Under the pieces are notes generated by a model, which was not told the DNA's origin, searched no databases, and saw nothing but the letters and a program-made list of their open reading frames with translations. From Georgenia sp. TF02-10 (lineage in GTDB: Bacteria > Actinomycetota > Actinomycetes > Actinomycetales > Actinomycetaceae), in assembly GCF_022759505.1 (NCBI RefSeq), contig NZ_CP094289.1, positions 1,922,001 through 1,986,000 on the forward strand: a stretch of DNA of 64,000 nucleotides. Reading direction: 5' to 3'. Positions 19,320-46,161 of this stretch are shown here, in pieces; within the stretch, counting starts at the first letter, position 1, and each line of letters begins with the position of its first letter. The position numbers were made by a program, and so were the translations under genes.

Positions 19320-20867
19320 GTGCGGAGCTTGGGCCTGGACGTGGGCAGCACCAACCTCAAAGCGGTGCTCGTCGACGTCGATGCCACGCCGGTCCACCCC
19401 GGTCCAGCCGCCCCCGCGCCGGCCGGAAACGGATCGGCCGGGACCGGACCGGTAGAGCCTGGGCCCGCGGAGCCCGGGCCGGCCCGTCCCGTCACCGTCG
19501 CCTCCGCGGCGGTGCCCACCCCCGGCGCGGGCGCGGCGTTGGTCGCCGCCGCCGTCGGCCTCGTCCGGGACGTGCTCGCCCGCTCCGACGTCCCGCCGGC
19601 GTGCGTCGGCGTCGCGGGGATGGCCGAGACCGGGGTGCCGCTGGACGGCGCGGACCGGCCGCTCGGCGACCTGGTCCGGTGGGACCCCCACCGCGCCAGC
19701 GCCGAGGCTGCCGCGCTGGCCGGCCGGCTCGGCGCGGCCGAGCTGTTCACCGCCACCGGCGTCCGGCCGAGCGGGAAGGTGCCGCTGGCGACCTGGGCCC
19801 ACCTGCGCGCCCACGACCCGGGGCGCTGGTCGGCGATGCACCGCTGGGCCGGCGCGGCCGACCTCCTCGTCCTGGCCCTGACCGGCCGGCTGGCCACCGA
19901 CCACACCCTGGCCGGGCGCACCATGGCCTACCGCCTGCCCGGCCCGGGCGACCCGTTCCCGCCCGGCTTCGACCCCGACCTCCTCGCCGAGGTCGGCCTG
20001 CGCCCCGACCAGCTGCCCGCCGTCGCCGTGCCGACCGAGACCGCCGGCCGGGTCCGCCCCGAGGCCGCCGCGGCCACCGGGCTGCGGGCCGGCACCCCGG
20101 TGGTCGTCGCCGGGCACGACCATGCCGTCGGCGCCTGGGCCGCCGGGGTCCGGACGCCCGGGGACGTGGCCGACTCCCTCGGCACCGCCGAGGCGGTGGT
20201 CCGGGTGCTCGGCGCCCGGCCAGAGCCGGCGGCGGTGGCGGCCGCCGGGATGAGCCTGGTCCGCACCGTCACCGGCTGCCACGACGCCCTGGTCGCCGGG
20301 TCGCCCAGCGCCGGGGAGATGGTGCGGTGGTTCGCCGAGCGCTACGCCGACGGCCAGCCCGTCCCCGAGCTCCTCGCCCGCGCCGCCGCCCGCCCCGGGC
20401 CCCGGACCGGCCTGTTCGTGCTGCCCTACCTGCGCGGGCGGCAGACCCCCGCGCCCGACCCCGGCGCCCGGGCGCGGGTGCTCGGGCGCCGCCCCCACCA
20501 CGACCTCGTCGACCTCGCCGGCGCGCTGCTGGAGGGCCTGAGCCTGCACGCCCGGTGGATGCACACTGAGCAGGCCCGCCTCGCCGGGGCGGACCCGGCC
20601 ACGGACGACGTCGTCGTGCTCGGGTCGGCCGCCGCCCCGGGCTCCCCGCTGCTGCAGGTCAAGGCCGCCGTCGGCCCGACCCGGCTGCGGAGCGTGGCCG
20701 ACCCCGAGCCGGTGGCCGCCGGCGCCGCGCTGCTCGCCGCCCACCGCAGCGGCCTGACCGCCGAGCCGGCCCCGCTGGCGACCAGCGCCACCGGCCGGGT
20801 GCCGGAGCCGGCCTACGACGAGCACTTCCGCCGGTTCCGCCGAGCCGCGACCCGAGGAGAGCCATGA
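19320..20867 (+). CDS. FGGY-family carbohydrate kinase
   Basis: 515 residues from the GTG at 19320, which puts the first phosphate-binding strand (LGLDVGSTNLKAVLVDVD) at the N-terminus, as is normal. An in-frame GTG at 19263 would add 19 unlikely residues. An unusual Pro/Gly/Ala-rich insertion follows at about 20-60. The FGGY core continues with GVAGMAETGVPL, RPSGKVPLATWAHLRA, GRTMAYRL and GHDHAVGAWAAGV; the Asp of GHDHAVGA is the likely catalytic base. The ATP domain includes LGSAAAPGSPLLQVKAAV. FGGY kinases phosphorylate sugars, ketoses or polyols with ATP. Gene overlap (ATGA) with the class I aldolase suggests the product is a sugar phosphate that is cleaved next. Confidence 0.85.
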   Translation: MRSLGLDVGSTNLKAVLVDVDATPVHPGPAAPAPAGNGSAGTGPVEPGPAEPGPARPVTVASAAVPTPGAGAALVAAAVGLVRDVLARSDVPPACVGVAGMAETGVPLDGADRPLGDLVRWDPHRASAEAAALAGRLGAAELFTATGVRPSGKVPLATWAHLRAHDPGRWSAMHRWAGAADLLVLALTGRLATDHTLAGRTMAYRLPGPGDPFPPGFDPDLLAEVGLRPDQLPAVAVPTETAGRVRPEAAAATGLRAGTPVVVAGHDHAVGAWAAGVRTPGDVADSLGTAEAVVRVLGARPEPAAVAAAGMSLVRTVTGCHDALVAGSPSAGEMVRWFAERYADGQPVPELLARAAARPGPRTGLFVLPYLRGRQTPAPDPGARARVLGRRPHHDLVDLAGALLEGLSLHARWMHTEQARLAGADPATDDVVVLGSAAAPGSPLLQVKAAVGPTRLRSVADPEPVAAGAALLAAHRSGLTAEPAPLATSATGRVPEPAYDEHFRRFRRAATRGEP

Positions 20868-21781
20868 TCCCCACCCCCGCCGCCGACGACGGCGCCCGGC
20901 CCACTCTTGGAGCGCTCGCCAGGTCGGCGGGCGGCCTGGCCATGGTGGCGATGGACCAGCGGGAGAGCCTGCGGACCATGTTCGCCGAGGCCGGTGTGGG
21001 GAGGGTGCCCGACGCCCGCCTGGTCGAGTTCAAGCTCGCCGTCGCCGCGCTCCTCGGCTCACGGGCCTCCGGCTTCCTCATCGACCGGCACTACGGCTTC
21101 GACCAGGTCCGGGCGACCGGCCTGCTCCCGCCGACCACCGGGCTCGTCCTGGCCGCCGACGCCCTGACCCAGGAGCCGGGCGGGCCGGTGGAGGAGACCG
21201 ACCTGGACGACGTCGTCCTGGCCCCCGAGCTGGACCTCACCGGTGTGGTCGCGGTGAAGCTGCTGGTGGTCTGGCGGCGCGACCGCCGGCGCGCGCAGCG
21301 GGCGGAGATGGCCGACCAGTTCGTCCGGGCCGCGCGGCGGCTGGGCGTGCTCTCCGTCCTGGAGCCGGTGGTCCGGGCCACCCCCGAGGAGCTGGCGGCC
21401 GGCACCTGGGACGCCGACGCCGCCATCGGCGAGGCCGCCGAGGAGCTCTCCGGCCTGGGCCAGAGCCTGTACAAGGTCCAGGTGCCCCGCGCCGGCCAGG
21501 GGCCGCCGGCGGAGCTGCGCGCAGCCTGCGCCCGGCTCGACGCGCGGATCACCGGGCCCTGGGTGGTGCTCTCCCAGGGCGTGGACCCCGGCGACTACCT
21601 CGGCGCGGTCACCGCCGCCTGCCAGGCCGGGGCGAGCGGCTTCCTCGCCGGCCGAGCCCTGTGGCGCGACGTCGTCGGCGCCGACGACGTCCCCGCCCGG
21701 CTCCGGGAGGTCGCGGTTCCGCGCCTGGACCGTCTCGTCGAGGTCGTCGACACCTACGCCCGCCCCTGGGGGCAGTCATGA
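20864..21781 (+). CDS. Class I (LacD/YihT-type) sugar-phosphate aldolase
   Basis: 305 residues. Residues 21-41 (SAGGLAMVAMDQRESLRTMF) closely match the start of E. coli YihT, the sulfofructose-phosphate aldolase, and are less like LacD tagatose-bisphosphate aldolase. SLYKVQVPRAGQGP carries the Schiff-base lysine Lys204, EPVV is at 167-170, and GASGFLAGRALW holds the phosphate-loop Arg264. The 60-residue Lys-to-Arg spacing matches my recollection of YihT. The expected reaction is cleavage of a ketose phosphate to dihydroxyacetone phosphate plus an aldehyde. It overlaps both neighbours (ATGA at 20864 and 21778), so kinase and aldolase should act in sequence. The true substrate (sulfosugar, deoxy-ketose or tagatose-like) cannot be settled from sequence. 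Confidence 0.82.
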   Translation: MIPTPAADDGARPTLGALARSAGGLAMVAMDQRESLRTMFAEAGVGRVPDARLVEFKLAVAALLGSRASGFLIDRHYGFDQVRATGLLPPTTGLVLAADALTQEPGGPVEETDLDDVVLAPELDLTGVVAVKLLVVWRRDRRRAQRAEMADQFVRAARRLGVLSVLEPVVRATPEELAAGTWDADAAIGEAAEELSGLGQSLYKVQVPRAGQGPPAELRAACARLDARITGPWVVLSQGVDPGDYLGAVTAACQAGASGFLAGRALWRDVVGADDVPARLREVAVPRLDRLVEVVDTYARPWGQS

Positions 21782-22494
21782 CCGCGCGCCTGGGCATGGT
21801 GCACACCGTCCCTGCCCTGGCGGAGCGCTTCGAGCGCCTGGCCGCCCGGCTCGGCGGGCCGGTGGAGGTGCTGCACGTCGTCGACCCCGCGCTGCTCGCC
21901 CAGGTGGTCAGGGACGGGGAGGTCACGGCGACCGTGCGGGACCGGGCCGTGGCCCACGCCCGGTACCTGGCCGGGCAGGGCGTCGGCGCGGTGCTGGTGA
22001 CCTGCTCCTCGATCGGGGAGTGCGCGGACCTGGCCGACGACGGCAGCAAGGTACCCGTGCTCCGGGTGGACCGGCCGATGGCGGCGCAGGCCGTCGCTCG
22101 CGCCGCGGCCCCCGGTGCGCGCGGCCGCGTCGCCGTGCTGGCGACCGTGGCGGCCACCCTGGGCCCCACCCGCCGCCTCCTCCAGGCCGAGGCTGCCCGC
22201 GCGGGTGCCGTGGTCGACGTGGCGGCGAACGTCGTCCCGGACGCGGCGGAGGCGCGCGCCCGGGGCGACCAGGCCGGCCACGACGCGCGGGTCCGGGCGG
22301 CGGTCGAGCGGGCCGTCGCCGACGCCGACGTCCTGGTCCTGGCCCAGGCGTCGATGGCCGACGCGCTCGCCTCCGGCGGGGCAGGTGGGCTGGTGACTGG
22401 CGGCTCGGGCGACGGGTACGGCGGCCGGGTGCTCAGCTCCCCGGTCAGCGGGCTGCGGGCGGTGCTCGCCGCCGTCGGCGTGCCGGCCCGGTGA
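21778..22494 (+). CDS. Aspartate/glutamate racemase superfamily protein with one candidate catalytic Cys
   Basis: 238 residues. LGMVHTVPALAERFERLAARL at the N-terminus and VGAVLVTCSSIGECADLA (first catalytic Cys site) fit the Asp/Glu racemase superfamily. The matching C-terminal site, normally a Cys motif, reads VLVLAQASMADAL, so the second cysteine is absent. One-Cys members of this superfamily include decarboxylases and isomerases rather than two-base racemases. Its 4-bp overlap with the aldolase gene suggests a step in the same sugar pathway, perhaps isomerising the substrate or a cleavage product. This is inference; the family is clear and the reaction unknown. Confidence 0.75.
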   Translation: MTARLGMVHTVPALAERFERLAARLGGPVEVLHVVDPALLAQVVRDGEVTATVRDRAVAHARYLAGQGVGAVLVTCSSIGECADLADDGSKVPVLRVDRPMAAQAVARAAAPGARGRVAVLATVAATLGPTRRLLQAEAARAGAVVDVAANVVPDAAEARARGDQAGHDARVRAAVERAVADADVLVLAQASMADALASGGAGGLVTGGSGDGYGGRVLSSPVSGLRAVLAAVGVPAR

Positions 22495-22531: not shown

Positions 22532-22636
22532 ACACCAGGCCGTCACCGCCGGGGCCGCGGTGCCCGCCCACCCGCCCGGAATGACCCCTTTACCACAAAC
22601 GGGAGAACTGTGCCCGGATCGTAACCAGCAGGAGCG

Positions 22637-22839: not shown

Positions 22840-24231
22840 ATGAGAGTACGAACCGCACGAGGCGTCGCGGTCACGGTCGCGGCCGGCCTCGCCCTTGCCG
22901 CCTGCGCCCAGGGCACCTCCGACCCCGGCGGCGGCGGTGAGGCCGCCGAGGACCTCGCGTTCGACTCCGGGTCCGAGCTGTCCGGGGAGATGGAGATCAT
23001 GGGCTTCGCCCTCGGCGACGACGTCGCGGAGTCCCGCTTCGAGCGCGCCGAGGAGGCGCTCGGCGACGTCACCATCAACCACGTCGAGGGCGCGCTGGAC
23101 ATCCAGCAGTTCCTGACCTCGGTGGCCTCGGGCAACCCGCCGGACGTCATCTACGCCGCCCGCGACCAGATCGGCTCCTTCGCCTCGCGCGGCGCGATCA
23201 TGCCGCTGACCCAGTGCATCGAGGGCGAGGGCATCGAGATCGACGACTACCGGGACAACACGATCGAGCAGGTGACCTTCAACGACGAGGTCTACGGCAT
23301 CCCCGAGTTCAACACGGTGCAGATCACCATGGCGAACCAGGACCTGCTGGGCGCCGCCGGGCTGACCATCGAGGACGTCAACGGCAAGGACTGGGACGCC
23401 ATCACCGCGGCCAACCAGGCGCTCATGAAGACCTCCGGCGGAAAGCTGAGCGTCATCGGCTACGACTCCAAGCTGCCCGAGTTCTTCCCGCTCTGGGCCA
23501 AGGCCAACGGCGTGGACATCCTGTCCGAGGACGCCCGGACCGCGCACATCAACGACCCGGCCGCGCTGGAGGCGCTGGAGTTCGCCTTCGGCATCTACCA
23601 GGCCCAGGGCGGGTTCGGCAACGTCAAGGCCTTCCGCGACTCCGCGGACTTCTTCGGCGAGGGCAACCAGTACGCCAGCAACACCCTCGGTGCCATGCCG
23701 ATGGAGCAGTGGTACATCAACATCCTCAACGACGTCTCCCCGGACGCGCCGGTGGCCTTCGACGCCTTCTACGGTCTCGACGGCGAGCCGCTGAGCTACG
23801 CCGGCGGCAGCGCGTGGGCCATCACCGCCGACGCCGCCAACCCCGAGGCGGCCTGCCGGTACGCGCGGGTGATGACCGAGGTGGACACCTGGATCGCCGC
23901 CGCCGAGAACCGGATCGCGCTGCGGGAGCAGGAGGGCGGCATCTTCACCGGGCTGCTCACCGGCAACGAGCGGGCCGACGAGATGATCCGGGAGATGGTG
24001 CCCGACGCCGGCGAGCCCTGGAACACCGCCATCGACGCGATGTACCAGGCCAACGACAACGCCGTCAGCGCGCCGGCGAGCCCCGCCGACGCCGAGGTCA
24101 AGACCGCCTGGGAGGACGCGATCAACCGGGTCCTGAACGGGCAGCAGGAGCCGAAGGCGGCGCTGGACCAGGCCCAGGAGGAAGCGCAGGCGGCCCTGGA
24201 CAAGGCCTGGGCCGCCGTGGACGAGGGCTGA
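22840..24231 (+). CDS. Sugar ABC transporter substrate-binding lipoprotein
   Basis: 463 residues with a GAGGGAG ribosome-binding site. The N-terminus RVRTARGVAVTVAAGLALAAC is a lipoprotein signal peptide with lipobox LAAC, so the mature protein is anchored outside the membrane by its Cys. The rest is a family 1 (MalE-like) solute-binding protein: QQFLTSVASGNPPDVIYAAR, VYGIPEFNTVQ and YAGGSAWAITADAANPEAA. Two permease genes follow within 3 nt and by overlap. The ligand is unknown; the island's hydrolases suggest a small glycan or glycoside. Confidence 0.93.
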   Translation: MRVRTARGVAVTVAAGLALAACAQGTSDPGGGGEAAEDLAFDSGSELSGEMEIMGFALGDDVAESRFERAEEALGDVTINHVEGALDIQQFLTSVASGNPPDVIYAARDQIGSFASRGAIMPLTQCIEGEGIEIDDYRDNTIEQVTFNDEVYGIPEFNTVQITMANQDLLGAAGLTIEDVNGKDWDAITAANQALMKTSGGKLSVIGYDSKLPEFFPLWAKANGVDILSEDARTAHINDPAALEALEFAFGIYQAQGGFGNVKAFRDSADFFGEGNQYASNTLGAMPMEQWYINILNDVSPDAPVAFDAFYGLDGEPLSYAGGSAWAITADAANPEAACRYARVMTEVDTWIAAAENRIALREQEGGIFTGLLTGNERADEMIREMVPDAGEPWNTAIDAMYQANDNAVSAPASPADAEVKTAWEDAINRVLNGQQEPKAALDQAQEEAQAALDKAWAAVDEG

Positions 24232-24234: not shown

Positions 24235-25197
24235 GTGGCCACCGCCACCGTCCCGGCCGCGCGCCGGCCGGGCGCGCCCGCCAGCGGGCGGGCGCGCCCG
24301 GGGCTGCGGAAGCAGCGCCGCCGCAACACCCTCGCCGCCCTGCTCTTCATCAGCCCGTGGATCGTCGGCGCGCTGATCTTCACGGTCTGGCCGATCCTCT
24401 ACAGCGGCTACCTGTCGCTGACCGACTACGACGTCATCAACGCGCCGACCTTCATCGGGCTGGACAACTACCGCCAGCTCGTCAACGACCCGAAGGTCGC
24501 CGACGCCCTGTGGAACACCACCTTCTACACGGTCCTCGTCGTGCCGCTGCAGATCATCTTCTCGTTGTTCCTGGCGATGCTGCTCAACGAGGCGGGCCGG
24601 GCCTCCGGGTTCTTCCGCACCACCTTCTACCTGCCGAACATGACCCCGCCGGTCGCCGTCGGGATCCTGCTGCTGCTCCTCTTCAACGGGGAGCGCGGCC
24701 TGATCAACAAGGCGCTCGGGTGGCTGGGCGTCAACGGCCCGAACTGGACCACCGACCCCAACTGGGTCAAGCCCGCGCTGGTCCTGATGGCGCTGTGGTC
24801 GGTCGGGTCCACGGTGATCATCCTGCTGGCCGCGCTGCGGAACGTGCCGGCCGAGATGTACGACTCGGCGAAGGTGGACGGCGCGAACTTCTGGCAGCGC
24901 ACCACCAAGATCACCATCCCGATGATCAGCGGGACGATCTTCTTCCTGGTCATCGTCAACACGATCGCCAGCTTCCAGACGTTCACCGAGGCGTACACGG
25001 CCTTCTTCGGGTCGAACTACTCCAACGACGCGGCCCTGTTCTACGCGATCTACCTCTTCCAGCAGGCGTTCGAGTTCCTGCACATGGGGTACGCCTCGGC
25101 GCTGGCCTGGCTGCTGTTCCTCATCATCATGATCATCACCGGCGTGCAGTTCATCTTCAGCCGGCGGCTCGTCTACTACGAGGGGGAGCAGCGATGA
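24235..25197 (+). CDS. Sugar ABC transporter permease, MalF-type
   Basis: 320 residues from a GTG 3 nt after the binding-protein stop. A basic N-terminus leads into six helices beginning LLFISPWIVGALIFTVWPILYS. The ABC-permease EAA loop is EMYDSAKVDGANFWQRTTKITIPMI, where the cytoplasmic ATPase docks. No ATPase gene lies in the window, so a shared MsiK-type ATPase encoded elsewhere probably energises it, as is common for carbohydrate importers in actinobacteria. Confidence 0.93.
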   Translation: MATATVPAARRPGAPASGRARPGLRKQRRRNTLAALLFISPWIVGALIFTVWPILYSGYLSLTDYDVINAPTFIGLDNYRQLVNDPKVADALWNTTFYTVLVVPLQIIFSLFLAMLLNEAGRASGFFRTTFYLPNMTPPVAVGILLLLLFNGERGLINKALGWLGVNGPNWTTDPNWVKPALVLMALWSVGSTVIILLAALRNVPAEMYDSAKVDGANFWQRTTKITIPMISGTIFFLVIVNTIASFQTFTEAYTAFFGSNYSNDAALFYAIYLFQQAFEFLHMGYASALAWLLFLIIMIITGVQFIFSRRLVYYEGEQR

Positions 25198-26114
25198 CCT
25201 CGACCGAGGCGGGCGCCCGGCTGGAGGTGGCCGAGCGCGCGGTGACGAACGAGCCCCGCCCGCACTACCGGCGCGACCGGTCCAAGCGGCCGCTGCCGGT
25301 GAAGATCATCGTCGGGGTGCTGCTGGTCGCCTTCACCGCCCTGTTCATCTATCCGTTCATCTGGCTGATCAGCGCCTCCTTCAAGCCACGCGGGGAGGTC
25401 TTCGACAACAAGATCATCCCGGACACCTTCACCCTCGAGAACTACGTGCGGGTGTGGCAGGAGGCCCCGCTCGCGCTGTGGATCTTCAACACGGTCCTGG
25501 TGACCGTGCTGGCGGCCACCGCGGTGACGATCTCCAGCGCCATGGTGGCCTGGGGCTTCGCGTACTTCCGGTTCAAGGGCCGCGGCCCGCTCTTCGGGGT
25601 GGTGCTGGCCACCATGATGCTGCCCGGGGCGGTCACCATGGTCCCGGTCTTCCTGATCTGGAACCAGCTGGGCCAGGTGGGCACGCTGACGCCCCTGTGG
25701 GCGCAGAACATCTTCGGCAGCGCCTTCTACATCTTCCTGCTCCGGCAGTTCTTCCTCGGGCTGCCGCGCGACATCTTCGAGGCCGCCCGGGTGGACGGGG
25801 CGAGCAACTGGCGGATGTTCAGCAGGATCGCGGTCCCGCTGTGCCGGCCGGCGCTCATCGTCACCCTGATCTTCGAGTTCCAGGCGTCCTGGACCAACCT
25901 CATGGCACCGCTGATCTACCTGCGGGACTCGGACACCTTCACCGTGCCCCGCGGCCTGAAGGCGATGCTCGACCAGTTCGGCTTCGGCGGGAACTGGAAC
26001 TGGGAGATCGTCGTCACCGCGAGCGTCATCACCACCATCCCGATGATCATCCTGTTCTTCCTGGCCCAGCGGCACTTCGTCGAGGGCATCGCGACCACGG
26101 GCGTCAAGGGCTGA
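25194..26114 (+). CDS. Sugar ABC transporter permease, MalG-type
   Basis: 306 residues, start overlapping the previous stop (ATGA). Six helices; typical MalG features are PFIWLISASFKPRGEVF near residue 60, the EAA loop DIFEAARVDGASNWRMFSRIAVPL, and the C-terminus FFLAQRHFVEGIATTGVKG. It forms the channel with the MalF-type partner. The GH1 gene follows after 82 bp, so the operon probably continues. Confidence 0.93.
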   Translation: MTSTEAGARLEVAERAVTNEPRPHYRRDRSKRPLPVKIIVGVLLVAFTALFIYPFIWLISASFKPRGEVFDNKIIPDTFTLENYVRVWQEAPLALWIFNTVLVTVLAATAVTISSAMVAWGFAYFRFKGRGPLFGVVLATMMLPGAVTMVPVFLIWNQLGQVGTLTPLWAQNIFGSAFYIFLLRQFFLGLPRDIFEAARVDGASNWRMFSRIAVPLCRPALIVTLIFEFQASWTNLMAPLIYLRDSDTFTVPRGLKAMLDQFGFGGNWNWEIVVTASVITTIPMIILFFLAQRHFVEGIATTGVKG

Positions 26115-26196
26115 CCCACCCGCCGCCGTCGGCGGCCGCCCCCCGGCCGGCGGCGCGACCGGCACGAGAAGCACCAGTGATGACGAAGCACCCGCG

Positions 26197-34221: not shown

Positions 34222-34277
34222 GCGGGAACGTTACCCAGAATCTTGTAGCGGCTCTATGGGATCGATACCATTCCCGG
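34222..34277. promoter_or_regulatory. 56-bp divergent promoter/operator region for GH84 and MBL genes
   Basis: For the plus-strand MBL gene: TTGTAG (34243-34248), a 17-nt spacer, TACCAT (34266-34271), then 6 nt to the GTG. For the minus-strand GH84 gene: TAACGT (34232-34227), then 6 nt to the ATG. Both fit leaderless transcripts. Two palindromes cover the -10 elements: ATGGGATCGATACCAT (34256-34271), nearly perfect with a central CG, and CGGGAACGTTACCCA (34223-34237). They resemble the LacI-type site at 22657 and 37675, so one repressor could silence both genes. Confidence 0.75.
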
Positions 34278-37241: not shown

Positions 37242-37654
37242 GTGCGCGCGGGTGAGTGCGCGGGTGAGCCATGCGGGGTGAGCCGCGCAGGGCGAGCCCG
37301 GGCGGATGGGACGAGCCGCGGCGGGTGAGCCGGGGCCCGGCGGCCGGGTCGCCGTGCGTGCCGCCCCCGGCCACGCCCCCGACCCGCTTCTCCTTCTCGT
37401 CTCACCCCTTCTTCTCCTTCTCGGTCTTCCTCCTCCTTCTCCGTTCTCTCCTTCTTCTCTCTCTCCTCCCACTTCTCCTTCTTCTCCGCCCGCACTTCTC
37501 CGACACCCCCACTTCTTCGCGCACTTCTCCTCCACCCCCCGCACTTCTCCGCGCGCCACCCCCACTTCTCCGCGCCCCACTTCTCCTCGTCCGCCCCGCC
37601 GTCGTCCCGGCCGCCTTTCTCCACTTCTACCCGCCCTCCGCCGCGCCGCTTTGG
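37242..37654 (+). repeat. Intergenic region with a ~260-bp polypyrimidine tract
   Basis: From about 37380 to 37640 the plus strand is almost pure C and T, dominated by CTTCTCC, TTCTTCTCC and CCACTTCTCCGCGC repeats. Upstream at 37242-37330 the motif GGGTGAGC recurs about five times. Frames through it give low-complexity Phe/Leu/Ser or Lys/Glu-rich peptides and no gene is supported. It separates the regulator from the mannosidase promoter. Such homopurine-homopyrimidine DNA can form triplex structures. Confidence 0.9.
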
Positions 37655-37688
37655 TTGACCTCTCCGAGAAGCGCTGGGTACGTTCCCA
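37655..37688 (+). promoter_or_regulatory. Promoter with LacI-type operator for the first GH38 gene
   Basis: TTGACC (37655-37660), 18-nt spacer, TACGTT (37679-37684). The -10 is inside TGGGTACGTTCCCA (37675-37688), which differs from a perfect palindrome by one position per half. The arrangement is the same as upstream of the importer operon. Transcription would start near 37691, about 30 nt before the GTG. Confidence 0.8.
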
Positions 37689-37720
37689 TAAGTCCCGCGA
37701 CGAACCATGGAGGTTCACCC

Positions 37721-40700
37721 GTGCACCGGTTGTCCAGCCTCGAGGGACGCATCGAGCGGACGCTGCTCGAGCGGCTGGTCCCGGCGGTCTACAGCGGCGC
37801 GGTCCCGGTCGAGGTCGCGGCCGTCCACCTCCCGGGCGAGCCGGTGCCGGCGGCCGAGGCGATCGCCATGGCCTACACCCCCTTCGCCGTCGGCGAGCGG
37901 TGGGGACCGCCGTGGAGCACCACCTGGTTCCGGCTGACCGGGCGCGTCCCGGAAGCCATGCGCGGCCGGCGGGTAGAGCTGCTGGTCGACCTCGGCTTCG
38001 AGGGGTCCGGTCCCGGGTTCCGGTCCGAGGGCCTGGCCTACACCGCCGACGCCGTGCCGATCAAGGGCGTGGAACCGCGGACCCCCTACGTCCCGGTCAC
38101 CCGCCGCGCCCGCGGCGGGGAGGCCGTCGAGGTCTACGTCGAGGCGGCCGCCAACCCCCGGTTCACCGGCGCCGTCTCGGCCGAGGGGGACCCGCGGACC
38201 GCCAGCGCCGCCCCGCTGTACCGGCTGGACCAGGCCGAGCTCGCGGTGCTGGAGGAGGAGGTCTACGGCCTGGTCCTGGACGTCCACGTGCTCAGCGGCC
38301 TCGCCGCCACGCTCGCCGAGACCGACCCGCGCCGGCACCAGATCCACCGCGCCCTGGAGGACATGCTCGACGAGCTCGACCTCGGCGACGTCGTCGGCGC
38401 CGCCCCGGCGGCGCGGGCCCGGCTGGCCGGGGTGCTCGCCGCCCCGGCCGTGCCCAGCGCGCACCGGGTCACCGCCGTCGGGCACGCCCACATCGACTCG
38501 GCCTGGCTGTGGCCGGTGCGGGAGACGATCCGGAAGTGCGCCCGCACCTTCGCCAACGTCACTGCGCTGGCCGAGGACTACCCCGACCTGGTCTTCGCCG
38601 CCTCCTCGGCCCAGCAGTACGCCTGGATGCGCGAGCACCACCCGCAGGTCTACCGGCGGATGCGGGAGCAGGTCGAAGCCGGACGGTTCCTGCCGGTGGG
38701 CGGGATGTGGGTGGAGTCGGACACCAACATGCCCGGCGGGGAGGCCCTGGTCCGGCAGTTCACCCAGGGCAAGCGGTACTTCCGCGACGAGCTCGGCGTG
38801 GAGCCGGAAGAGGTCTGGCTGCCCGACTCCTTCGGCTACTCCGGGGCGCTGCCCCAGCTCGCCCGGCTGGCCGGCTTCCGGTGGTTCCTGTCCCAGAAGA
38901 TGTCCTGGAACGAGACCAACCCCTTCCCGCACCACACCTTCTGGTGGGAGGGCATCGACGGCACCCGGGTCTTCACCCACTTCCCGCCCGCGGACACCTA
39001 CAGCGCCGAGCTCTCCGCCGAGGAGCTCGCCCGCGGCGTGCGCACCTTCGCCGAGCACGGCCGGGCGAGCCGGTCGCTGCTGCCGTTCGGGCACGGCGAC
39101 GGCGGCGGCGGGCCGACCCGGGAGATGCTGGAGATCGCCCACCGGGTGCGGGACCTCGAGGGGTCCCCGCGGGTGACGCTGGGCTCCCCGGCGGAGTTCT
39201 TCGCCGCGGCCCAGGCGGAGTACCCCCGCGCCCCGGTGTGGTCGGGGGAGATGTACCTCGAGGCCCACCGCGGCACGTACACCAGCCAGCGGGAGATGAA
39301 GCGCGGCAACCGGCGCAGCGAGCACCTGCTCCGCGAGGCCGAGCTGTGGTCCGCCGCCGCGGCCGTGGCCGGGCTGCACCCGTACCCCTACGAGGAGCTG
39401 GACCGCCTCTGGCAGGAGACCCTGCTGCTGCAGTTCCACGACGTCCTGCCGGGCAGCTCCATCGCCTGGGTGCACCGCCAGGCCCGGCAGACCTACGCCC
39501 GGCTGGCCGCGGACCTGGACCGGCTGGTCGACGCCGCGCAGGCCGCGCTCGCCGGCGCCGGGGACGTCGAGCTGGCCTTCAACGCCGCCCCGCACGTCCG
39601 CGACGGCGTGCCCGCCCTGGCCGCCGCGCCCGCCGCGCCGCCGGGCGGGGAGGACCCGGTCCGGGTCACCACCGACGGCGCCGGGACCGTCCTGGACAAC
39701 GGGCTGCTCCGGGTGCGCGTCGGCCCGGACGGCACGCTGACCTCGGTCCGCGACCTGGTCGCCGACCGGGAGGTCCTCGCCCCCGGCGCCGCCGGCAACG
39801 TCCTGCAGCTGCACCCGGACACCCCCAACCGCTTCGACGCCTGGGACCTGGACGCGTCCTACCGGCACCGCCGCCGGGACCTCACCGCGGTAAACGCCAT
39901 GACCGTGGACGGCACCGACCCGGCCCGGCCGGTCGTGCAGGTGGACCGGTCCGACGGCGGCTCGCGGTACCGGCAGACCGTCGCCCTGGCCGCCGGCCGG
40001 CGCCGGGTGGACCTCACCGCCGACATCGACTGGCGCGAGCGCGAGACCCTGGTCAAGGTCGCCTTCCCGCTGGCCGTGCACGCCGACCGGGCCGCCGCCG
40101 AGACCCAGTTCGGGCACGTGCTGCGGCCCACCCACACCAACACCTCCTGGGACGCGGCCCGGTTCGAGATCTGCGCGCACCGCTGGGTGCACGTGGCCGA
40201 GCCCGGGTACGGCGTCGCGGTGGTCAACGACTCCGTCTACGGCCACGACATCACCGCCCCCGGGCCGGGGGAGGCGCGCGGCGCCGGGCCCACCACCGTG
40301 CGGCTGTCCCTGCTGCGGGCGCCGCGCTACCCCGACCCGGAGACCGACCAGGGCCGGCATCGCTTCGGCTACGCCCTGGTCTGCGGGGCCGAGGTCGCCG
40401 ACGCCGTCCGGGAGGGGTACCGGGCCAACCTGCCGCTGCGCCGTCGCCGGGGGGCGGGACCGGTGGAGCCGCTGGTCCGGGTGAGCCCGACGGCGGTCGT
40501 CGAGGCGGTCAAGCTCGCCGACGACCGCTCCGGCGACGTCGTCGTGCGGCTGTACGAGCCGCTCGGCGCCCGCGGGCGGGCGGAGGTGGCGACGTCCTTC
40601 GACCTCGCGTCCGCCTGGGTCTGCGACCTCCTCGAGCGCCGGGACGAGGAGGTCGCCGCGCTGGCGCCGCTGACAACGGCCTCGGCCCGCGCCGTGACCC

Positions 40701-40948
40701 TGGACCTGGGGCCCTTCCAGGTGGTGACGCTGCGGCTGCGGCCGGTCCCCGCGCGCGCCGGGCAGTCGCCCGCTGGCCGGGCGGGCGCAGAACCACTGGC
40801 CCAGTCGCGGACCGGGGAGCCGGCCGCCGGTCTGGCGGCCCAAGAACCGGATGCCAGCCCGCCGGCGTCGGGGGAGCCCCGGGTCGGCCCGGCCGACGGG
40901 GAGCCCACCACTGCACCGGACCGGCCGCCGTCGGCAGGCCGACCGTGA
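37721..40948 (+). CDS. Glycoside hydrolase family 38 (alpha-mannosidase), long form
   Basis: 1075 residues from a GTG with GGAGG 8 nt upstream; longer frames run into the polypyrimidine tract. The N-terminal ~240 residues are the beta domain of bacterial/vacuolar-type alpha-mannosidases (WSTTWFRLTGRVPE). The catalytic domain has VGHAHIDSAWLWPVRET (zinc ligands), MWVESDTNMPGGEALVRQ and WLPDSFGYSGALPQ with nucleophile Asp369. FGHGDGGGGPTREML follows, then a beta-sandwich C-terminal half. The last ~65 residues are low complexity. Zinc-dependent retaining enzyme removing alpha-mannosyl residues; no signal peptide, so cytoplasmic. Confidence 0.93.
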   Translation: MHRLSSLEGRIERTLLERLVPAVYSGAVPVEVAAVHLPGEPVPAAEAIAMAYTPFAVGERWGPPWSTTWFRLTGRVPEAMRGRRVELLVDLGFEGSGPGFRSEGLAYTADAVPIKGVEPRTPYVPVTRRARGGEAVEVYVEAAANPRFTGAVSAEGDPRTASAAPLYRLDQAELAVLEEEVYGLVLDVHVLSGLAATLAETDPRRHQIHRALEDMLDELDLGDVVGAAPAARARLAGVLAAPAVPSAHRVTAVGHAHIDSAWLWPVRETIRKCARTFANVTALAEDYPDLVFAASSAQQYAWMREHHPQVYRRMREQVEAGRFLPVGGMWVESDTNMPGGEALVRQFTQGKRYFRDELGVEPEEVWLPDSFGYSGALPQLARLAGFRWFLSQKMSWNETNPFPHHTFWWEGIDGTRVFTHFPPADTYSAELSAEELARGVRTFAEHGRASRSLLPFGHGDGGGGPTREMLEIAHRVRDLEGSPRVTLGSPAEFFAAAQAEYPRAPVWSGEMYLEAHRGTYTSQREMKRGNRRSEHLLREAELWSAAAAVAGLHPYPYEELDRLWQETLLLQFHDVLPGSSIAWVHRQARQTYARLAADLDRLVDAAQAALAGAGDVELAFNAAPHVRDGVPALAAAPAAPPGGEDPVRVTTDGAGTVLDNGLLRVRVGPDGTLTSVRDLVADREVLAPGAAGNVLQLHPDTPNRFDAWDLDASYRHRRRDLTAVNAMTVDGTDPARPVVQVDRSDGGSRYRQTVALAAGRRRVDLTADIDWRERETLVKVAFPLAVHADRAAAETQFGHVLRPTHTNTSWDAARFEICAHRWVHVAEPGYGVAVVNDSVYGHDITAPGPGEARGAGPTTVRLSLLRAPRYPDPETDQGRHRFGYALVCGAEVADAVREGYRANLPLRRRRGAGPVEPLVRVSPTAVVEAVKLADDRSGDVVVRLYEPLGARGRAEVATSFDLASAWVCDLLERRDEEVAALAPLTTASARAVTLDLGPFQVVTLRLRPVPARAGQSPAGRAGAEPLAQSRTGEPAAGLAAQEPDASPPASGEPRVGPADGEPTTAPDRPPSAGRP

Positions 40949-40959
40949 GGCCCGCACCG

Positions 40960-41008
40960 TTGACCCGCCCGAGAACCGCTCCCTATGCTCGGTGTGGGAA
41001 CGATGCCA
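40960..41008 (+). promoter_or_regulatory. Promoter and downstream operator for the second GH38 gene
   Basis: TTGACC (40960-40965), 18-nt spacer, TATGCT (40984-40989). TGGGAACGATGCCA at 40995-41008 matches the inverted LacI-type site at 37675 at 11 of 14 positions and overlaps the expected start of transcription. The spacer shares CCGAGAA-N-CGCT with the promoter at 37655. The leader to the GTG is about 185 nt. Confidence 0.65.
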
Positions 41009-41180
41009 GAACCGGCGCGCCGACGTGCCGGGCACCCCGCCCAGCGGGCCGGCCCGCTGCCTGCCGCCGCCCCGCCGCGCGCCCCCCGCACCCGCGCCGC
41101 AACCCCGAGACGCACACCCCGATGCCGCACCCGACCAGCGACCCGGCAGGCCGGTGGGCCGCCGCGGAGGAGAGCCAGCC

Positions 41181-43973
41181 GTGACCGCCCTGGAGCCCGC
41201 CCGCCGGGCGCCCACCGCCAACGCCCCGACCGGCGCGTCGGCCCGCGACCTGGCCCGCGACCAGCGGCCGGCCGCCACCCCGGACCGGACCGTGCACATG
41301 GTCGGCCACGCCCACCTGGACCCGGTGTGGCTGTGGCCCTGGCAGGAGGGCTACCAGGAGGCGCGGGCGACCTTCTGGTCGGCGATCCACCGGATGGAGG
41401 AGTACCCCGACTTCGTCTTCACCTCCGACCAGGTCGTCCTGCTGTCCTGGGTGGAGGAGTCCGACCCCGAGCTGTTCGAGCGCATCCGGCAGCGCGTGGC
41501 GGAGGGCCGCTGGCAGGTGGTCGGCGGCTGGTGGGTGGAGCCGGACTGCAACATGCCGGCCGGGGAGTCCTTCGTCCGGCAGGGCCTGTACGGCCAGCGG
41601 TACCTGCGGGACCGGTTCGGGGTCACGGCCACCGTCGGCATGAACGCCGACCCGTTCGGGCACAACGCGATGCTCCCGCAGATCCTGCGCGGCCAGGGCA
41701 TGGACTCCTACTGCTTCCTGCGCCCCGCCCCGCACGAGCTCGCGCTGACCGACACGGCATTCTGGTGGGAGTCCCCGGACGGCTCCCGGGTGCTGGGCTA
41801 CCGCATCCCGCACGAGTACGGCAGCCCGCCCCGGGACGTCTCCGGCCAGGTGGACAAGGCGATGGCCGCCGTCGACCACCGGCTGGGGGACCTGATGGTC
41901 TTCTACGGCGTCGGCAACCACGGGGGCGGGCCGACCCGGGCCAACATCGAGTCGATCTACCGCTACGACCGGATGGGCACCTTCGGCCGGATGACGATGT
42001 CCTCCCCGCGCCGCTACTTCGACGACCTCCTCGCCCGCGACGGCGGGGCCGCCGTCGCCGACCTGCCGGTGTGGCGGTCGGACCTCCAGCACCACGCGCC
42101 CGGCTGCTACTCGGCCCACTCGGGCATCAAGGCCTGGCAGCGGCGCGCCCAGGCCGCCGTCCTCGCCGCCGAGCGGTGGGCCGCGGTCGGCGCCCTGGCG
42201 CACGGGCTGCCCTACCCGCGGCAGGAGCTGGAGCGGGCCTGGAAGCAGGTGCTGTTCAACCAGTTCCACGACATCCTGCCCGGCTCGGCGATCGAGCCGG
42301 CCTACGACGACGCCCGCGACCAGCTCGGCGAGGCGGTCGCCGTCGCCAAGCGCACCACCACCCTGGTGCACAACACCATCGCCCGGCAGGTCCGGATCCC
42401 CGTCGAGCCCGGGACCCAGCCCGTCCTGGTGCTCAACCCGCACCCCTGGCCGGTGCGGGCCGCCGTCGAGATGCAGTACGCGGTGCAGCCGACCGGGGTG
42501 CACGTGGTCGACGCCGACGGCGCCCGCGCCGTCTCCCAGCGGATCCAGTCCACCGCCACCACCGACGACAAGGGCCGCGGGGCGATCGTCTTCCAGGCCG
42601 AGGTGCCGCCGCTGGGCTACCGGCTCTACCGGATGCGGCCGGGCACGGCGCCGGTCGGGGGGTGGAGCGGCGCCGCGCCGGGCCGGCTGCGGGTCACCGA
42701 GACGCTGCTGGAGAACGACCACCTCCGCGTCACCCTCGACCCGGCCACCGGGTGGCTGAGCTCGCTGCTGGACAAGCGCACCGGGGTGGACCTCCTCGCC
42801 GGCGCGACCGGCGAGCACACCCAGGTCTGCGCCGACCCCACCGACACCTGGGGCCACCGGGTGGTGTCCTACGCCTGGCCCGGCGAGGCGATGCGGACCG
42901 TCCGGGTGGTGCGCCAGGAGGCCGGGCCGCTGCGCGGGCGCATCCGGGTGGAGCGCGCGTGGGGACGGTCCACGCTGGTCGAGGAGCTCATCCTCGGGCA
43001 CGACAGTCGGGCGGTGGAGGTGCGGGTGACGCTCGACTGGCGGGAGAAGGCACACCTGCTGAAGCTCCGGGTCCCCACCGCCCTGACCGACCCCACCGCC
43101 ACCTACGAGATCCCCTTCGGGTCGCTGGAGCGGCCGGTGGACGGGGCGGAGCAGCCCGCGCAGACCTGGGTCGACGTGACCGGCACCGCCAGCCGGGACG
43201 GGCGCCCGGTGCCCGCGGGGCTGGCCGTGGTCAACGACACCAAGCACGGCTTCGACGTCTCGCCCGGGGACGGCCCGGGCGACGGCTCGCCCGGGGACGG
43301 CCCGAGCATCGGCATCACCGCCGTGCGCAGCCCGGTCTACTCCTGGCACGACCCCCGTGAGCTCGACCCGGACGGCTTCTACTCCTACCAGGACCAGGGC
43401 GTGCAGCGCTTCCGCTACCAACTGGTCCCGCACGGCGGGGACTGGCGGGCCGCGGACCTGATGCGCCGCTCCGCCGAGCTCGGCGCCCCGGTGCGGGCCA
43501 TGCTGGAGAGCTTCCACGACGGCGCGCTGCCGGCGGCGACGTCCTTCGCCGCCGACGACGGCGGCCAGGTGATGGTCACCGCCGTCAAGGGCAGCGAGGA
43601 CGACGGCGCGGACGGAGCGGACCTCGTCGTCCGCGCCGTGGAGACCACCGGCCGGCCCGCCGACGCCCGGATCGCGCTGCCCCTGGTGGGCCGCACCCTG
43701 ACCACCCGGTTCGGGCCCAGCCAGATCCGCACCTTCCGCGTCCCGGCCCGCCCGGACCTGCCGGTGGAGGAGGTCGACCTTCTCGAGTGGCCACTGGCCG
43801 AGCCCGGCGCCCCGGTGCACGTCGAGCCGGCCGACGACGTCCGGCGCCGTCCGGCCCGGGACCGGCCCGGGCAGCCGGCGGACCGCGCCGCCTCCGACGT
43901 CACCGAGCCGGCCGAGCGCCTGGCCCCCGGCCAGCCCGACCAGGTCGAGCCCGACCAGGTCGGCGATGGCTGA
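41181..43973 (+). CDS. Glycoside hydrolase family 38 (alpha-mannosidase / MngB-like), short form
   Basis: 930 residues from a GTG with GGAGGAG 7 nt upstream. The catalytic domain starts near residue 38: VHMVGHAHLDPVWLWPWQEG, GGWWVEPDCNMPAGESFVRQ and VGMNADPFGHNAMLPQ with nucleophile Asp157. YGVGNHGGGPTRANIE and QFHDILPGSAIEPAYDDA follow. It lacks the long N-terminal beta domain of its neighbour, so the two are distinct paralogues and may prefer different linkages. The C-terminal beta domains contain a short repeat PGDG(P/S). The stop lies inside the next gene's start (ATGGCTGA). Confidence 0.93.
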   Translation: MTALEPARRAPTANAPTGASARDLARDQRPAATPDRTVHMVGHAHLDPVWLWPWQEGYQEARATFWSAIHRMEEYPDFVFTSDQVVLLSWVEESDPELFERIRQRVAEGRWQVVGGWWVEPDCNMPAGESFVRQGLYGQRYLRDRFGVTATVGMNADPFGHNAMLPQILRGQGMDSYCFLRPAPHELALTDTAFWWESPDGSRVLGYRIPHEYGSPPRDVSGQVDKAMAAVDHRLGDLMVFYGVGNHGGGPTRANIESIYRYDRMGTFGRMTMSSPRRYFDDLLARDGGAAVADLPVWRSDLQHHAPGCYSAHSGIKAWQRRAQAAVLAAERWAAVGALAHGLPYPRQELERAWKQVLFNQFHDILPGSAIEPAYDDARDQLGEAVAVAKRTTTLVHNTIARQVRIPVEPGTQPVLVLNPHPWPVRAAVEMQYAVQPTGVHVVDADGARAVSQRIQSTATTDDKGRGAIVFQAEVPPLGYRLYRMRPGTAPVGGWSGAAPGRLRVTETLLENDHLRVTLDPATGWLSSLLDKRTGVDLLAGATGEHTQVCADPTDTWGHRVVSYAWPGEAMRTVRVVRQEAGPLRGRIRVERAWGRSTLVEELILGHDSRAVEVRVTLDWREKAHLLKLRVPTALTDPTATYEIPFGSLERPVDGAEQPAQTWVDVTGTASRDGRPVPAGLAVVNDTKHGFDVSPGDGPGDGSPGDGPSIGITAVRSPVYSWHDPRELDPDGFYSYQDQGVQRFRYQLVPHGGDWRAADLMRRSAELGAPVRAMLESFHDGALPAATSFAADDGGQVMVTAVKGSEDDGADGADLVVRAVETTGRPADARIALPLVGRTLTTRFGPSQIRTFRVPARPDLPVEEVDLLEWPLAEPGAPVHVEPADDVRRRPARDRPGQPADRAASDVTEPAERLAPGQPDQVEPDQVGDG

Positions 43974-46161
43974 GCCCGGGGCGCCCGCCCGGCTGGTCGT
44001 GGAGATCGTCCGCCCGTCCCGGGCGAGCGTCCCCGTCCCGCTCCGCCGGTGCGGCTCGGAAGGCGGCGAGACCGCCGATGGGGGCCGCGCCGTCGACCAG
44101 GATGACGAAGCCGCGGCCACCGGTGCGCTCGACCCTGCCGGCGCGGGTGCGCTCGACCCTGCTGGCGCGGGTGCGCTCGACCCCGCCGGCCCGGCTGCGC
44201 TCGACGTCGCCGGCGCGGGTGCGCTCGACCCCGCCGGCCCGGCTGCGCTCGACGTCGCCGGCCCGGGTGCGCTCGACGTCGCCGGCCCGGGTGCGCTCGA
44301 CGTCGGCGCCCCGCCGGGCCGGTTCCACGGCACCGCGGCGGGCTTCACCGTGGGCGCCGCCCTCGGGCCCCCCGCCGGCGCCGACGGGCGCACCCTCGAG
44401 CTTGACGTGCACTACGAGGGCGAGGAGGTCACCGAGGCCACCGTGCGGCTGCGGGCCGAGACCCCCGCCCGGGACCCGTGGTGGCTCATCCCCGGCCTGT
44501 TCTACGGCGAGAACCGGCCCGAGGGGTGCGACCGGATCTTTCCCCGCTTCGCCGTCGGCGCCGACGACCCGGCAGGGATGGTGAGCTGCCGCTGGGAGTT
44601 CCGGGCCGACCGCGCCGCCACCCCGGCGGTCTTCGCCTGGGGCGGCGGCGGCGGCGTGGCCCTGCTCACCGCCGAGACCAGCCCGCTGGGTACCTCCGGG
44701 CTCGGGCTCGCTCACGAGGAGCAGACCGGCAGCGCCAGCGTCAGCCTGCTCTTCCCCTATCGGGAGACCCCGGTGACGTACTACGGCTCCGCGCAGCCGC
44801 TGCCCGCCCAGGTGGCCGGGCACCGGTGGCGGCCGGGGGAGCGGGTCCGCCTCGAGGCGCGCGCGTACTCCCTAGGCGGCGACCGGCACGCCTACGCCCC
44901 GATCCTGCGGGCGGAGCACGCCCGGCAGCGGCACGAGGCGGGCGTGCAGCCGTGGGTGAGCATCCCGGAGGCGGCCGACCTCACCGCCCACGGCCTGCTC
45001 ACCTGGCACTACGACCCGGACCCGGGGGTGCTGCTGGAGACCGTCGGGTTCGACCGGGAGGTCACCGGCCGGGACGGCCGGCCGGTGGACCGCCAGGCGA
45101 TGCACGTGGCCTGGATCAGCGGGATCCCGTGGGCCTACGCCCTGCTCGCCCACGGCCGGCGCACCGGCCGGGCCGCGGAGGTCGAGGCCGCCCGGTCCGT
45201 CATCGACCACGTCTGCGCGAACCTGGCCCCGGCGGGGACCTTCTGGGGCCGGTGGGACCGCGCCCTCGGGTGGCGGGCGAGCTGGAGCCCGATCCCGGAC
45301 GGCCTGCACCAGCGGACCCTGGCCGAGGCCACCCTGTTCCTCCTGCGGGCCCTGGACCTGGAGGGCCCGGGCCGGGCGGCGCCGTCGTGGACGGCCGCCG
45401 CCCGTGCCAACCTGCGGGCCGCCGTGCGCCACCAGCGCGCCGACGGCAACCTCGGCTCGGTCGTGCATGCCCGGACCGGGGAGGTGCTCTCCTGGCGCGG
45501 GGCGTCCGGGCTCACCTGGGTCGCCGCGCTCGCGGAGGCGGGCGGTCTGGACGACGACGGCGCCTGCCTGGCGGCCGCGGTCCGGGCGGGGGAGTACTAC
45601 GCGTCCTTCGTCGAGGCCGAGTTCATCAACGGCGCGCCGGAGGACGTCGACCTGGCGCCGACCGCCGAGGATGGGTACGCCGCGGTGATGGCGTACGTGG
45701 CGCTGCACCGGCGCACCGGCGCGCCGCGGTGGCTGGACCTGGCCCGCCGGGCGGCCGACTGGATGCTCACCTTCCGCTACACCTACGACGTGCGGTTCGA
45801 CCCGCGCACCCTGCTCGGCGCCTACGGCTTCGCCACCCGGGGGGCGGACCAGGCCTCGGTGTCCAACCAGCACCTGGGCGCGTACGGCCTGGTGTGCACG
45901 AGCGAGCTCGTGGAGCTGTCCGTGGCGCTCGGCGACCCGCACTACGCCGAGCGGGCGATGGAGACGCTGGCCTGCTTCCGCCAGTTCGTCGCCCGGCAGG
46001 ACGGGGACTTCAACGCCTACCGCGGCATGGTGACCGAGCGGTACTACCACACCACCTGCTTCCAGCCGAAGGGCATGCTGCTGACCCTCTCGCACGCCTG
46101 GAGCGTGGGGGTGCTGCTGCTGGCCTGCGAGCAGGCGCTCGCCGCCGACCGGCCCGCCTGA
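43966..46161 (+). CDS. (alpha/alpha)6-barrel (six-hairpin) glycosidase-like protein
   Basis: 731 residues; start overlaps the GH38 stop by 8 bp, so it is coupled to it. Residues 53-116 are eight copies of an 8-residue repeat (GALDPAGP type). A beta domain (to about 330) contains WWLIPGLFYGENRPEGCDRIFPRF. The helical barrel follows with HVAWISGIPWAYALLAHGRR, FWGRWDRALGWRASWSPIPDG, VEAEFINGAPEDVDLAPTAEDGYAA and ERYYHTTCFQPKGML. This resembles six-hairpin glycosidases, with acidic residues (E, D, D near 550-565) as candidate catalytic groups. I cannot assign a family. Being cytoplasmic and coupled to a mannosidase, it may remove another residue of the same glycan. Confidence 0.65.
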   Translation: MAEPGAPARLVVEIVRPSRASVPVPLRRCGSEGGETADGGRAVDQDDEAAATGALDPAGAGALDPAGAGALDPAGPAALDVAGAGALDPAGPAALDVAGPGALDVAGPGALDVGAPPGRFHGTAAGFTVGAALGPPAGADGRTLELDVHYEGEEVTEATVRLRAETPARDPWWLIPGLFYGENRPEGCDRIFPRFAVGADDPAGMVSCRWEFRADRAATPAVFAWGGGGGVALLTAETSPLGTSGLGLAHEEQTGSASVSLLFPYRETPVTYYGSAQPLPAQVAGHRWRPGERVRLEARAYSLGGDRHAYAPILRAEHARQRHEAGVQPWVSIPEAADLTAHGLLTWHYDPDPGVLLETVGFDREVTGRDGRPVDRQAMHVAWISGIPWAYALLAHGRRTGRAAEVEAARSVIDHVCANLAPAGTFWGRWDRALGWRASWSPIPDGLHQRTLAEATLFLLRALDLEGPGRAAPSWTAAARANLRAAVRHQRADGNLGSVVHARTGEVLSWRGASGLTWVAALAEAGGLDDDGACLAAAVRAGEYYASFVEAEFINGAPEDVDLAPTAEDGYAAVMAYVALHRRTGAPRWLDLARRAADWMLTFRYTYDVRFDPRTLLGAYGFATRGADQASVSNQHLGAYGLVCTSELVELSVALGDPHYAERAMETLACFRQFVARQDGDFNAYRGMVTERYYHTTCFQPKGMLLTLSHAWSVGVLLLACEQALAADRPA
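44122..44313 (+). repeat. 24-bp coding tandem repeat, 8 copies
   Basis: Eight contiguous 24-bp units begin at 44122, 44146, 44170, 44194, 44218, 44242, 44266 and 44290. Each begins GGTGCGCTCGAC or GGCTGCGCTCGAC-like sequence and encodes G-A-L-D-(P/V)-A-G-(A/P). The array inserts about 64 residues in the N-terminal domain of the six-hairpin protein. Confidence 0.95.

Follow-up and report, generated by a model that had tools for sequence, protein, structure and literature searches.

A recurrent FGGY kinase, YihT-like aldolase and racemase-like gene trio in a mannosidase island of Georgenia sp. TF02-10, possibly directed at an acidic ketose

The 64,000-nucleotide stretch of Georgenia sp. TF02-10 analysed here (the window; positions 1922001-1986000 of contig 1 in a 4.09 Mb assembly) is high in GC and carries on its forward strand three successive genes, for an FGGY-family sugar kinase (KIN, 19320-20867; Pfam FGGY_N/FGGY_C), a class I aldolase (ALD, 20864-21781; Pfam DeoC/LacD) and a PF01177 racemase-like protein (RAC, 21778-22494; Pfam Asp_Glu_race). 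Each gene overlaps the next by ATGA, and the operon with 4-bp overlaps proposed in a preliminary description of this DNA is borne out, the Pfam domains agreeing. The trio is a conserved variant of ketose 1-phosphate cleavage inside a mannosidase island, and our literature search, which was confined to open-licence papers, returned no description of it. Our tentative reading, to which we give somewhat less than an even chance, is that the trio forms the last, intracellular part of a system for using glycans and would cleave an acidic ketose into dihydroxyacetone phosphate (DHAP) and a short acid; this is the best fit to the data, and it rests on context.

The aldolase is a sister of the sulfofructose phosphate (SFP) aldolase YihT. 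Its best match in the PDB is a sulfofructosephosphate aldolase (E 8.5e-59), the matches below the YihT type being a DUF2090 protein (2e-14) and tagatose-bisphosphate aldolases (2.9e-7 at best), and it is 40% identical to E. coli YihT. The preliminary description had placed it closer to YihT than to LacD, which these values confirm; the motif it cited, SAGGLAMVAMDQRE, is present, and Lys204 and Arg264 occupy the E. coli YihT positions in all 8 rows of our alignment. In a quick tree of 61 rows, which took in 45 of the 85 trio rows, these 45 form one side of a branch (SH-like approximate likelihood ratio test, SH-aLRT, 96), while nine YihT-type rows form a separate group with an SH-aLRT of only 75; ALD thus falls outside the YihT clade, and outside both groups lie a single tagatose-type row and six distant aldolases, most of them linked to FGGY. 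Lys204, Arg264, Asp31, Gln32 and Arg33 are kept in at least 97% of the 85 trio rows and in all six YihT-type rows chosen for comparison, from which L023, L024 and L137 were left out. The two types differ elsewhere: Gln206, the second residue past Lys204, is found in 85/85 trio rows and is Glu in 6/6 of the selected YihT-type rows, Gln238 replaces the Ser of the YihT type in 82/85, and Asp269 is kept in 83/85, with Ser there in five of the six YihT-type rows. Positions 28, 35 and 36 of ALD are biased, since the scan patterns used to collect the relatives lie there. Five further loci of the same order (L025-L029) carry distant aldolases, about 28-38% identical, together with LacI regulators and different FGGY kinases, and show another FGGY-aldolase pairing.

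Whether the three genes occur together in other genomes had been left open by the preliminary description, and the genome context shows that they do. Genome contigs were scanned with five close aldolases, and the best 80 of 99 relatives were joined by four other loci; the resulting 84 loci, many of them cut by contig ends, stand for at most 83 genomes (L020 and L057 belong to one). Among the 75 loci with enough flank, the kinase is adjacent to the aldolase in 51, the racemase lies within 1.2 kb in 65, and both are so placed in 49. ALD and its partners are present in Cellulomonas, Microbacterium, Leifsonia, Streptomyces and Nonomuraea, and in Jiangella without the kinase. When the window proteins were searched in the 84 loci (tblastn, 1e-10), matches were found for the racemase in 73, the kinase in 56 (57 with another query at 1e-12), the 620-aa glycosidase-like protein GHX of the island in 39, the metallo-beta-lactamase-fold (MBL) protein in 28, the FAD-dependent oxidoreductase in 23, the glycoside hydrolase family 1 (GH1) enzyme and the LacI regulator in 22 each, the GH84 enzyme in 21 and a 731-aa protein in 11. 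The counts for the importer (permeases 41 and 40, binding protein 34) and for the two mannosidases (GH38B 33, GH38A 31) are upper bounds, the importer queries also finding paralogues and the GH38 queries each other's copies. A recurrent layout has OtnC, OtnK and DeoR divergent from kinase, aldolase, racemase and a GH13_18 phosphorylase. Gene clusters that recur in the 84 loci and are absent from the window, each named by Pfam and NCBIfam on one representative, are DeoR (53), DUF1537 (40), GH13_18 (30), class II aldolase (30), SIS (20), GH2 (20) and ROK (18).

An OtnK-type DUF1537 kinase (3-oxo-tetronate type) is present in 43 of the 84 loci, 40 of one type and 3 of another, at a median distance of 2.3 kb from the aldolase; the representative scores 431.7 bits against a cut-off of 350. 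An OtnC-like gene was found in 31 loci and a Hyi/OtnI-like gene in one. The association extends to whole genomes: among 396 sampled genomes of the order, searched at a limit of 1e-60, the trio aldolase occurs in 12 (above 400 bits) and a YihT-type aldolase in 13 (216-280 bits), and the 29 genomes with OtnK over its cut-off comprise 9/12 with the trio aldolase and 20/384 others (1/13 with the YihT type). OtnK is likewise over its cut-off in 5/8 trio genomes in which it is not adjacent to the aldolase; the Fisher values for these two comparisons, p 3e-9 and 3e-5, like the others given below, are too small, since related genomes, several of them sharing genera, are treated as independent. The tetronate-type kinase and decarboxylase genes are unexpected partners and hint at a carboxylate.

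In the proposed pathway the FGGY kinase would phosphorylate an acidic ketose at C1, the carboxylate most likely standing where the YihT substrate has its sulfonate, and the YihT-like aldolase would split the ketose 1-phosphate, releasing DHAP and an acidic aldehyde of short chain length. RAC would isomerise or epimerise the resulting acid, which the DUF1537/OtnK kinase would phosphorylate and the OtnC-like enzyme decarboxylate, so that another triose phosphate would arise. The GH13_18 phosphorylase may, in many relatives, free the ketose from an alpha-glucoside, the Georgenia genome having no such match. The preliminary description had noted that the window lacks a ketose isomerase, and Pfam indeed found none among the island genes; where the GH13_18 phosphorylase releases the ketose directly, such an isomerase would not be needed. 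All these activities, like the carboxylate and the chain length, we infer from the gene context; a C7 ketose would fit OtnK chemistry, and a C6 ketose would give tartronate semialdehyde. Mannose- and N-acetylglucosamine-releasing types of enzyme accompany the trio, and the acidic sugar is probably a food source. It is tempting to speculate further on a 'carboxy-EMP' pathway, a third route resembling the Embden-Meyerhof-Parnas (EMP) pathway and parallel to sulfoglycolysis, in which an acidic ketose would be converted to its 1-phosphate and cleaved, leaving DHAP plus a tetronate semialdehyde that would in turn give another DHAP and CO2 via RAC, OtnK and OtnC; its substrate would be an anionic fructose-like ketose, which in many lineages a GH13_18 enzyme with a new acceptor loop would free from an alpha-glucoside. 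We consider this full version, taken in all its parts, rather improbable. If true, it would mean that an acidic ketose is widespread in the glycans of soil and has gone unrecognised.

Against the sucrose phosphorylase profile the GH13_18 representative reaches 322 bits, under the cut-off of 334.4. Its acceptor loop reads PHQ, mostly LPHQ, in at least 90% of 30 sequences, and the His of this loop was aligned by eye with His344 of TtSPP from T. thermosaccharolyticum, a residue to which, according to excerpts of PMC7178133 and PMC6720575, the phosphate group of fructose 6-phosphate binds. Kinase and phosphorylase are linked over the 75 loci, 26 having both, 25 the kinase only, 2 the phosphorylase only and 22 neither (p 3e-4). 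Two genomes, G263 and G237, also carry a GH13_18 of the LPHQ type; in G263 (L146:2224-5047) an OtnK match lies beside it, followed by an amidase-like frame, and the 5.8-kb contig has no aldolase match.

Besides the p values qualified above, a number of observations weigh against an acidic ketose. OtnK was not found by tblastn in 41 of the 84 trio loci, and only 12 of 26 further trio-aldolase genomes without a nearby OtnK have one over the cut-off. (On the favourable side, and noted post hoc, the ten Streptosporangiaceae among these 26 divide into 7/7 with OtnK over the cut-off where RAC is at the locus and 0/3 where it is not.) In Georgenia itself OtnK (414.5 bits, cut-off 350) stands alone at C1:775459, some 1.2 Mb away from the trio, the best OtnC match reaches 68.8 bits (cut-off 250), and there is no sucrose_gtfA match at 1e-60, on which ground sucrose was also set aside as a substrate in this genome. 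Elsewhere the OtnC-like representative reaches 178 bits (cut-off 250), a Micromonospora DUF1537 protein 29.1 bits (cut-off 350), and OtnK and OtnC of Deinococcus taeanensis 236.9 and 169.3 bits, both under the cut-offs of 350 and 250; the Deinococcus gene labelled 'GH100' scores higher as an MGH1-like hydrolase (60.2 vs 53.8 bits). To our knowledge no C7 ketouronic acid occurs in such glycans. The kinase is also missing in places: a trio-type kinase (E about 1e-140 or better) was not found in 14 of 24 trio-aldolase genome entries searched, which stand for 22 distinct genomes, the rows of G375 and G489 and of G205 and G490 being identical. The 14, all searched as whole genomes, are G149, G164, G306, G176, five Jiangella, L031, L073, L079, L081 and L058, and they show either no kinase match or one no better than 1e-61; in G205, G270 and G375 a trio-type kinase lies on a different contig from the aldolase. 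In the genomes without it, either another kinase serves or the trio kinase is dispensable.

Three other explanations were weighed. The preliminary description had suggested a new variant of a sulfosugar, deoxy-ketose or rare-sugar pathway, of which the unusual ketose route stands as a possibility and the sulfosugar part does not, and we regard a sulfosugar pathway with FGGY standing in for YihV as very improbable. YihT is admittedly the closest studied aldolase, and two RAC homologues, neither of them the window's, weakly match the cysteate racemase CuyB (E 5.1e-5 and 7.5e-6; 23 and 26 bits, cut-off 190). However, eight sulfoglycolysis markers queried from E. coli and Arthrobacter records (YihS, YihV, YihU, YihQ, YihR, SlaB/GabD, the Arthrobacter PfkB and TauE) are matched in 0/84 trio loci (tblastn, 1e-12), and at the same limit window positions 9001-46200 hold no match to a sulfoquinovose isomerase, a PfkB sulfofructose kinase or a sulfolactaldehyde (SLA) reductase or dehydrogenase. 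The separate aldolase clade and the replacement of Glu and of Ser by Gln also argue against it. Nine YihT-type comparison loci, which include L023, L024 and L136 as loci not proven to be sulfo-EMP, match PfkB (Arthrobacter query) in 8 cases, SlaB/GabD in 5 and OtnK, RAC or the FGGY kinase in none; for the four that belong to the same order the figures are 4/4 for PfkB and 3/4 for SlaB/GabD. A known FGGY sulfofructose kinase was looked for as a precedent and set aside, the excerpts of PMC11968277 mentioning FGGY kinases only beside DUF4867 genes. In excerpts of PMC12421959 a sulfofucose cluster includes a kinase of PfkB type and a PF01791 aldolase, the pathway shown there being of another kind.

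The trio may instead split a neutral ketose (fructose, a deoxy-ketose such as rhamnulose, or a heptulose) into DHAP and a neutral aldehyde, OtnK and OtnC then forming a second, co-regulated tetronate pathway; this is possible, if doubtful. FGGY kinases act mostly on neutral polyols and ketoses, and the 41 loci without OtnK count on the same side, as do the five distant FGGY-aldolase loci, which show no OtnK, and eight Streptosporangiaceae loci from seven Nonomuraea and [Actinomadura] parvosata (L095, L097, L099, L100, L102, L106, L108, L109). In these eight DeoR lies beside the aldolase and is followed by a gene of the polysaccharide lyase family 11 (PL11) rhamnogalacturonan-lyase type, an assignment for which one member was tested by Pfam; none has OtnK at the locus, and four hold the full trio, one the aldolase and RAC, and three the aldolase only. 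(The same DeoR-PL11 arrangement stands beside the aldolase at L117 of Nonomuraea gerenzanensis.) Against a neutral ketose speak the nearest studied kin of the aldolase, which takes an anionic tail, the enrichment of OtnK even where it is not adjacent (5/8 vs 20/384) and the anion-type His in the GH13_18 loop. It is unlikely that trio and mannosidase island are independent units that lie side by side by chance. The island (L140) and the trio (L117) of N. gerenzanensis are separated by about 1.5 Mb within a single record, and the Planctomonas trio (L060) stands among genes that by eye resemble haem synthesis; on the other side, GHX is found in 13 of the 396 genomes, namely 11/12 with the trio aldolase against 2/384 others (p 1e-18) and 0/13 with the YihT type, and Streptomyces L103 has SIS, GH38B, the 731-aa protein and GH1 before the trio, L104 and L093 having some of these.

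An importer, made up of a sugar ABC binding protein (22840-24231; SBP_bac_1) and two permeases (24235-25197 and, in a corrected frame, 25194-26114; both BPD_transp_1), follows the trio on the forward strand; the alternative frame for the second permease, 25190-26200, has no Pfam match. No ATPase gene adjoins, as had been remarked, which is ordinary for this transporter class. The preliminary description counted eight or more glycan-linked genes, and we count nine, on the forward strand unless stated: a GH1 beta-glucosidase-type enzyme (26197-27576; Pfam 457.2 bits, NCBIfam BGL 507.8 bits, cut-off 478.5), GHX (27737-29599), the FAD-dependent oxidoreductase (29596-31302; PF12831, FAD_oxidored, 328.1 bits), a GH84 beta-N-acetylglucosaminidase-type enzyme on the reverse strand (31405-34221; NAGidase, 324.9 bits), a protein with two MBL stretches (34215-36191; Lactamase_B and Lactamase_B_2), a LacI-type regulator (36207-37241; Pfam), two GH38 alpha-mannosidase-type enzymes, GH38A (37271-40948) and GH38B (41181-43973, the start being a gene call and uncertain; the Pfam GH38N/C match was made on 40851-43973), GH38A likewise matching GH38N/C, and the 731-aa protein (43966-46161). 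Relatives of the two-MBL protein also occur on both Deinococcus plasmids described below. Rfam and tRNA scans of the window gave no matches.

The pairing of an FGGY kinase with a YihT-like aldolase and a nearby candidate hydrolase of GH31/36 fold agrees with what had been described. GHX has by its model a clan GH-D fold without a clear family: Pfam GH31 gives 13.6 bits, under the cut-off of 23.5, and a profile match to a GH31 alpha-galactosidase has E 4.4e-7. Its AlphaFold model (mean predicted local distance difference test, pLDDT, 90.5) has as best Foldseek match a Flavonifractor galactosaminidase (TM 0.62, 13% identity), which we take to be of GH36 type, and as best VIA match a family 31 alpha-glycosidase (Z 26.4, root-mean-square deviation 4.6, 438 aligned) with many rows close behind. 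Its DADG(F/V)KVDF stretch presumably corresponds to the nucleophile loops of the clan. A sulfoquinovosidase function was considered and set aside; such enzymes are among the many VIA matches (Z 21.5-24.0 vs 26.4 for the best row), none is best, and the fold search does not discriminate. In genome G317 (L141:5697-16644) the genes in line with GHX code for GH32 and GH13 enzymes, an importer and an iron alcohol dehydrogenase, and the trio aldolase is absent. The 731-aa protein has no Pfam match at 0.001; its predicted model, a beta domain and an (alpha/alpha) barrel (from 44311 on, pLDDT 74.2), is matched by Foldseek to polysaccharide lyase, GH76 and AGE-type folds, and a function was not assigned from it, the fold being generic and the model confidence middling.

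KIN is over no NCBIfam equivalog cut-off, its best match being XylB (120.7 bits, cut-off 380.25). RAC has no NCBIfam match at 0.001 and one conserved cysteine of the usual two of PF01177 racemases: in an alignment of 33, Cys76 is invariant, as is Ala191 at what we take to be the site of the second catalytic cysteine. Relatives of RAC lie beside a four-carbon acid sugar kinase together with a RuBisCO-like protein and near pectin enzymes on a Rufibacter plasmid (L118:7320-10645), with a class II fructose-bisphosphate-type aldolase on a Deinococcus plasmid and with a class II aldolase/adducin gene in Haladaptatus; in Rhizobium rosettiformans one lies about 4 kb from otnC/otnK, and in Agrobacterium one is found by an aldo/keto reductase. 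In other Rhizobium, relatives have FAD oxidoreductases and importers of the peptide type as neighbours, so tetronates are not the only context of the family. A role as a plain OtnI stand-in was rejected, since a Hyi/OtnI-like gene (249.8 and 203.2 bits, below the cut-offs of 353 and 325) and RAC occur together in Micromonospora L098. The run there (7198-15358) consists of DUF1537 kinase, FGGY kinase, aldolase, hydroxypyruvate-isomerase-like gene and RAC, and adjoins glucosamine-isomerase-type, BadF-type and GH4 genes. A separate run in the Georgenia genome (L115:6804-10045; contig 1, 304000-323900) holds DeoR, a by-eye PdxA and a DUF1537-type gene, resembles a D-threonate operon and is distinct from the trio.

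Two Deinococcus plasmids carry the same island (GHX, GH38, SIS, ROK, GH2, MBL, GH84) with OtnC- and OtnK-like genes, with PfkB substituting for FGGY and a class II aldolase for the YihT-like enzyme. RAC is present in one of the two, that of Deinococcus sp. QL22 (216 aa); at its site in D. taeanensis (L128:18646-18942) there is a 98-aa frame, by eye a shortened RAC. This exchange of kinase and aldolase families within a kept gene set suggests a real soil sugar without a matched catabolism. The trio opens a way, by experiment, to a new substrate for the YihT branch of aldolases and to a function for a racemase family with one cysteine, and the loci yield a clan GH-D enzyme without Pfam assignment and a GH13_18 loop type outside the motifs described in the excerpts consulted.

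The likeness of GHX to the clan GH-D glycosidases of GH31 and GH36 lies in its predicted fold, and it differs in its 9-15% identity in the VIA rows and in having no Pfam family over the cut-off. The GH13_18 enzyme resembles sucrose phosphorylase and sucrose 6F-phosphate phosphorylase, the best PDB match of the representative being the B. adolescentis sucrose phosphorylase (E 1.6e-130), and PHQ is not among the loop motifs given in excerpts of the literature on the subfamily (NxDxYQ, GFDVHQ, KXXYYQ, VGA and a Glu variant). With OtnK/OtnC/OtnI tetronate catabolism the loci share, in many cases, an OtnK-type kinase, an OtnC-like class II decarboxylase and a DeoR divergent from the trio; unlike that system, the trio version would be fed by the aldolase, only one of the 84 loci has a Hyi/OtnI-like gene, and the named recurrent clusters include no dehydrogenase, LtnD and DenD not having been searched as such. 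Sulfo-EMP consists of YihS, YihV and YihT, to which Arthrobacter adds an SLA dehydrogenase, according to excerpts of PMC8873060, PMC9594981 and PMC12890257. The trio differs from it in having FGGY and not PfkB, an aldolase clade of its own, the racemase and the OtnK/OtnC partners, and in that YihS, YihU, SlaB, YihQ and YihR are unmatched in its loci; it is like the YihT pathway of E. coli and Arthrobacter in its class I aldolase of the same branch, in the ketose kinase that precedes it and in DHAP as the expected product.

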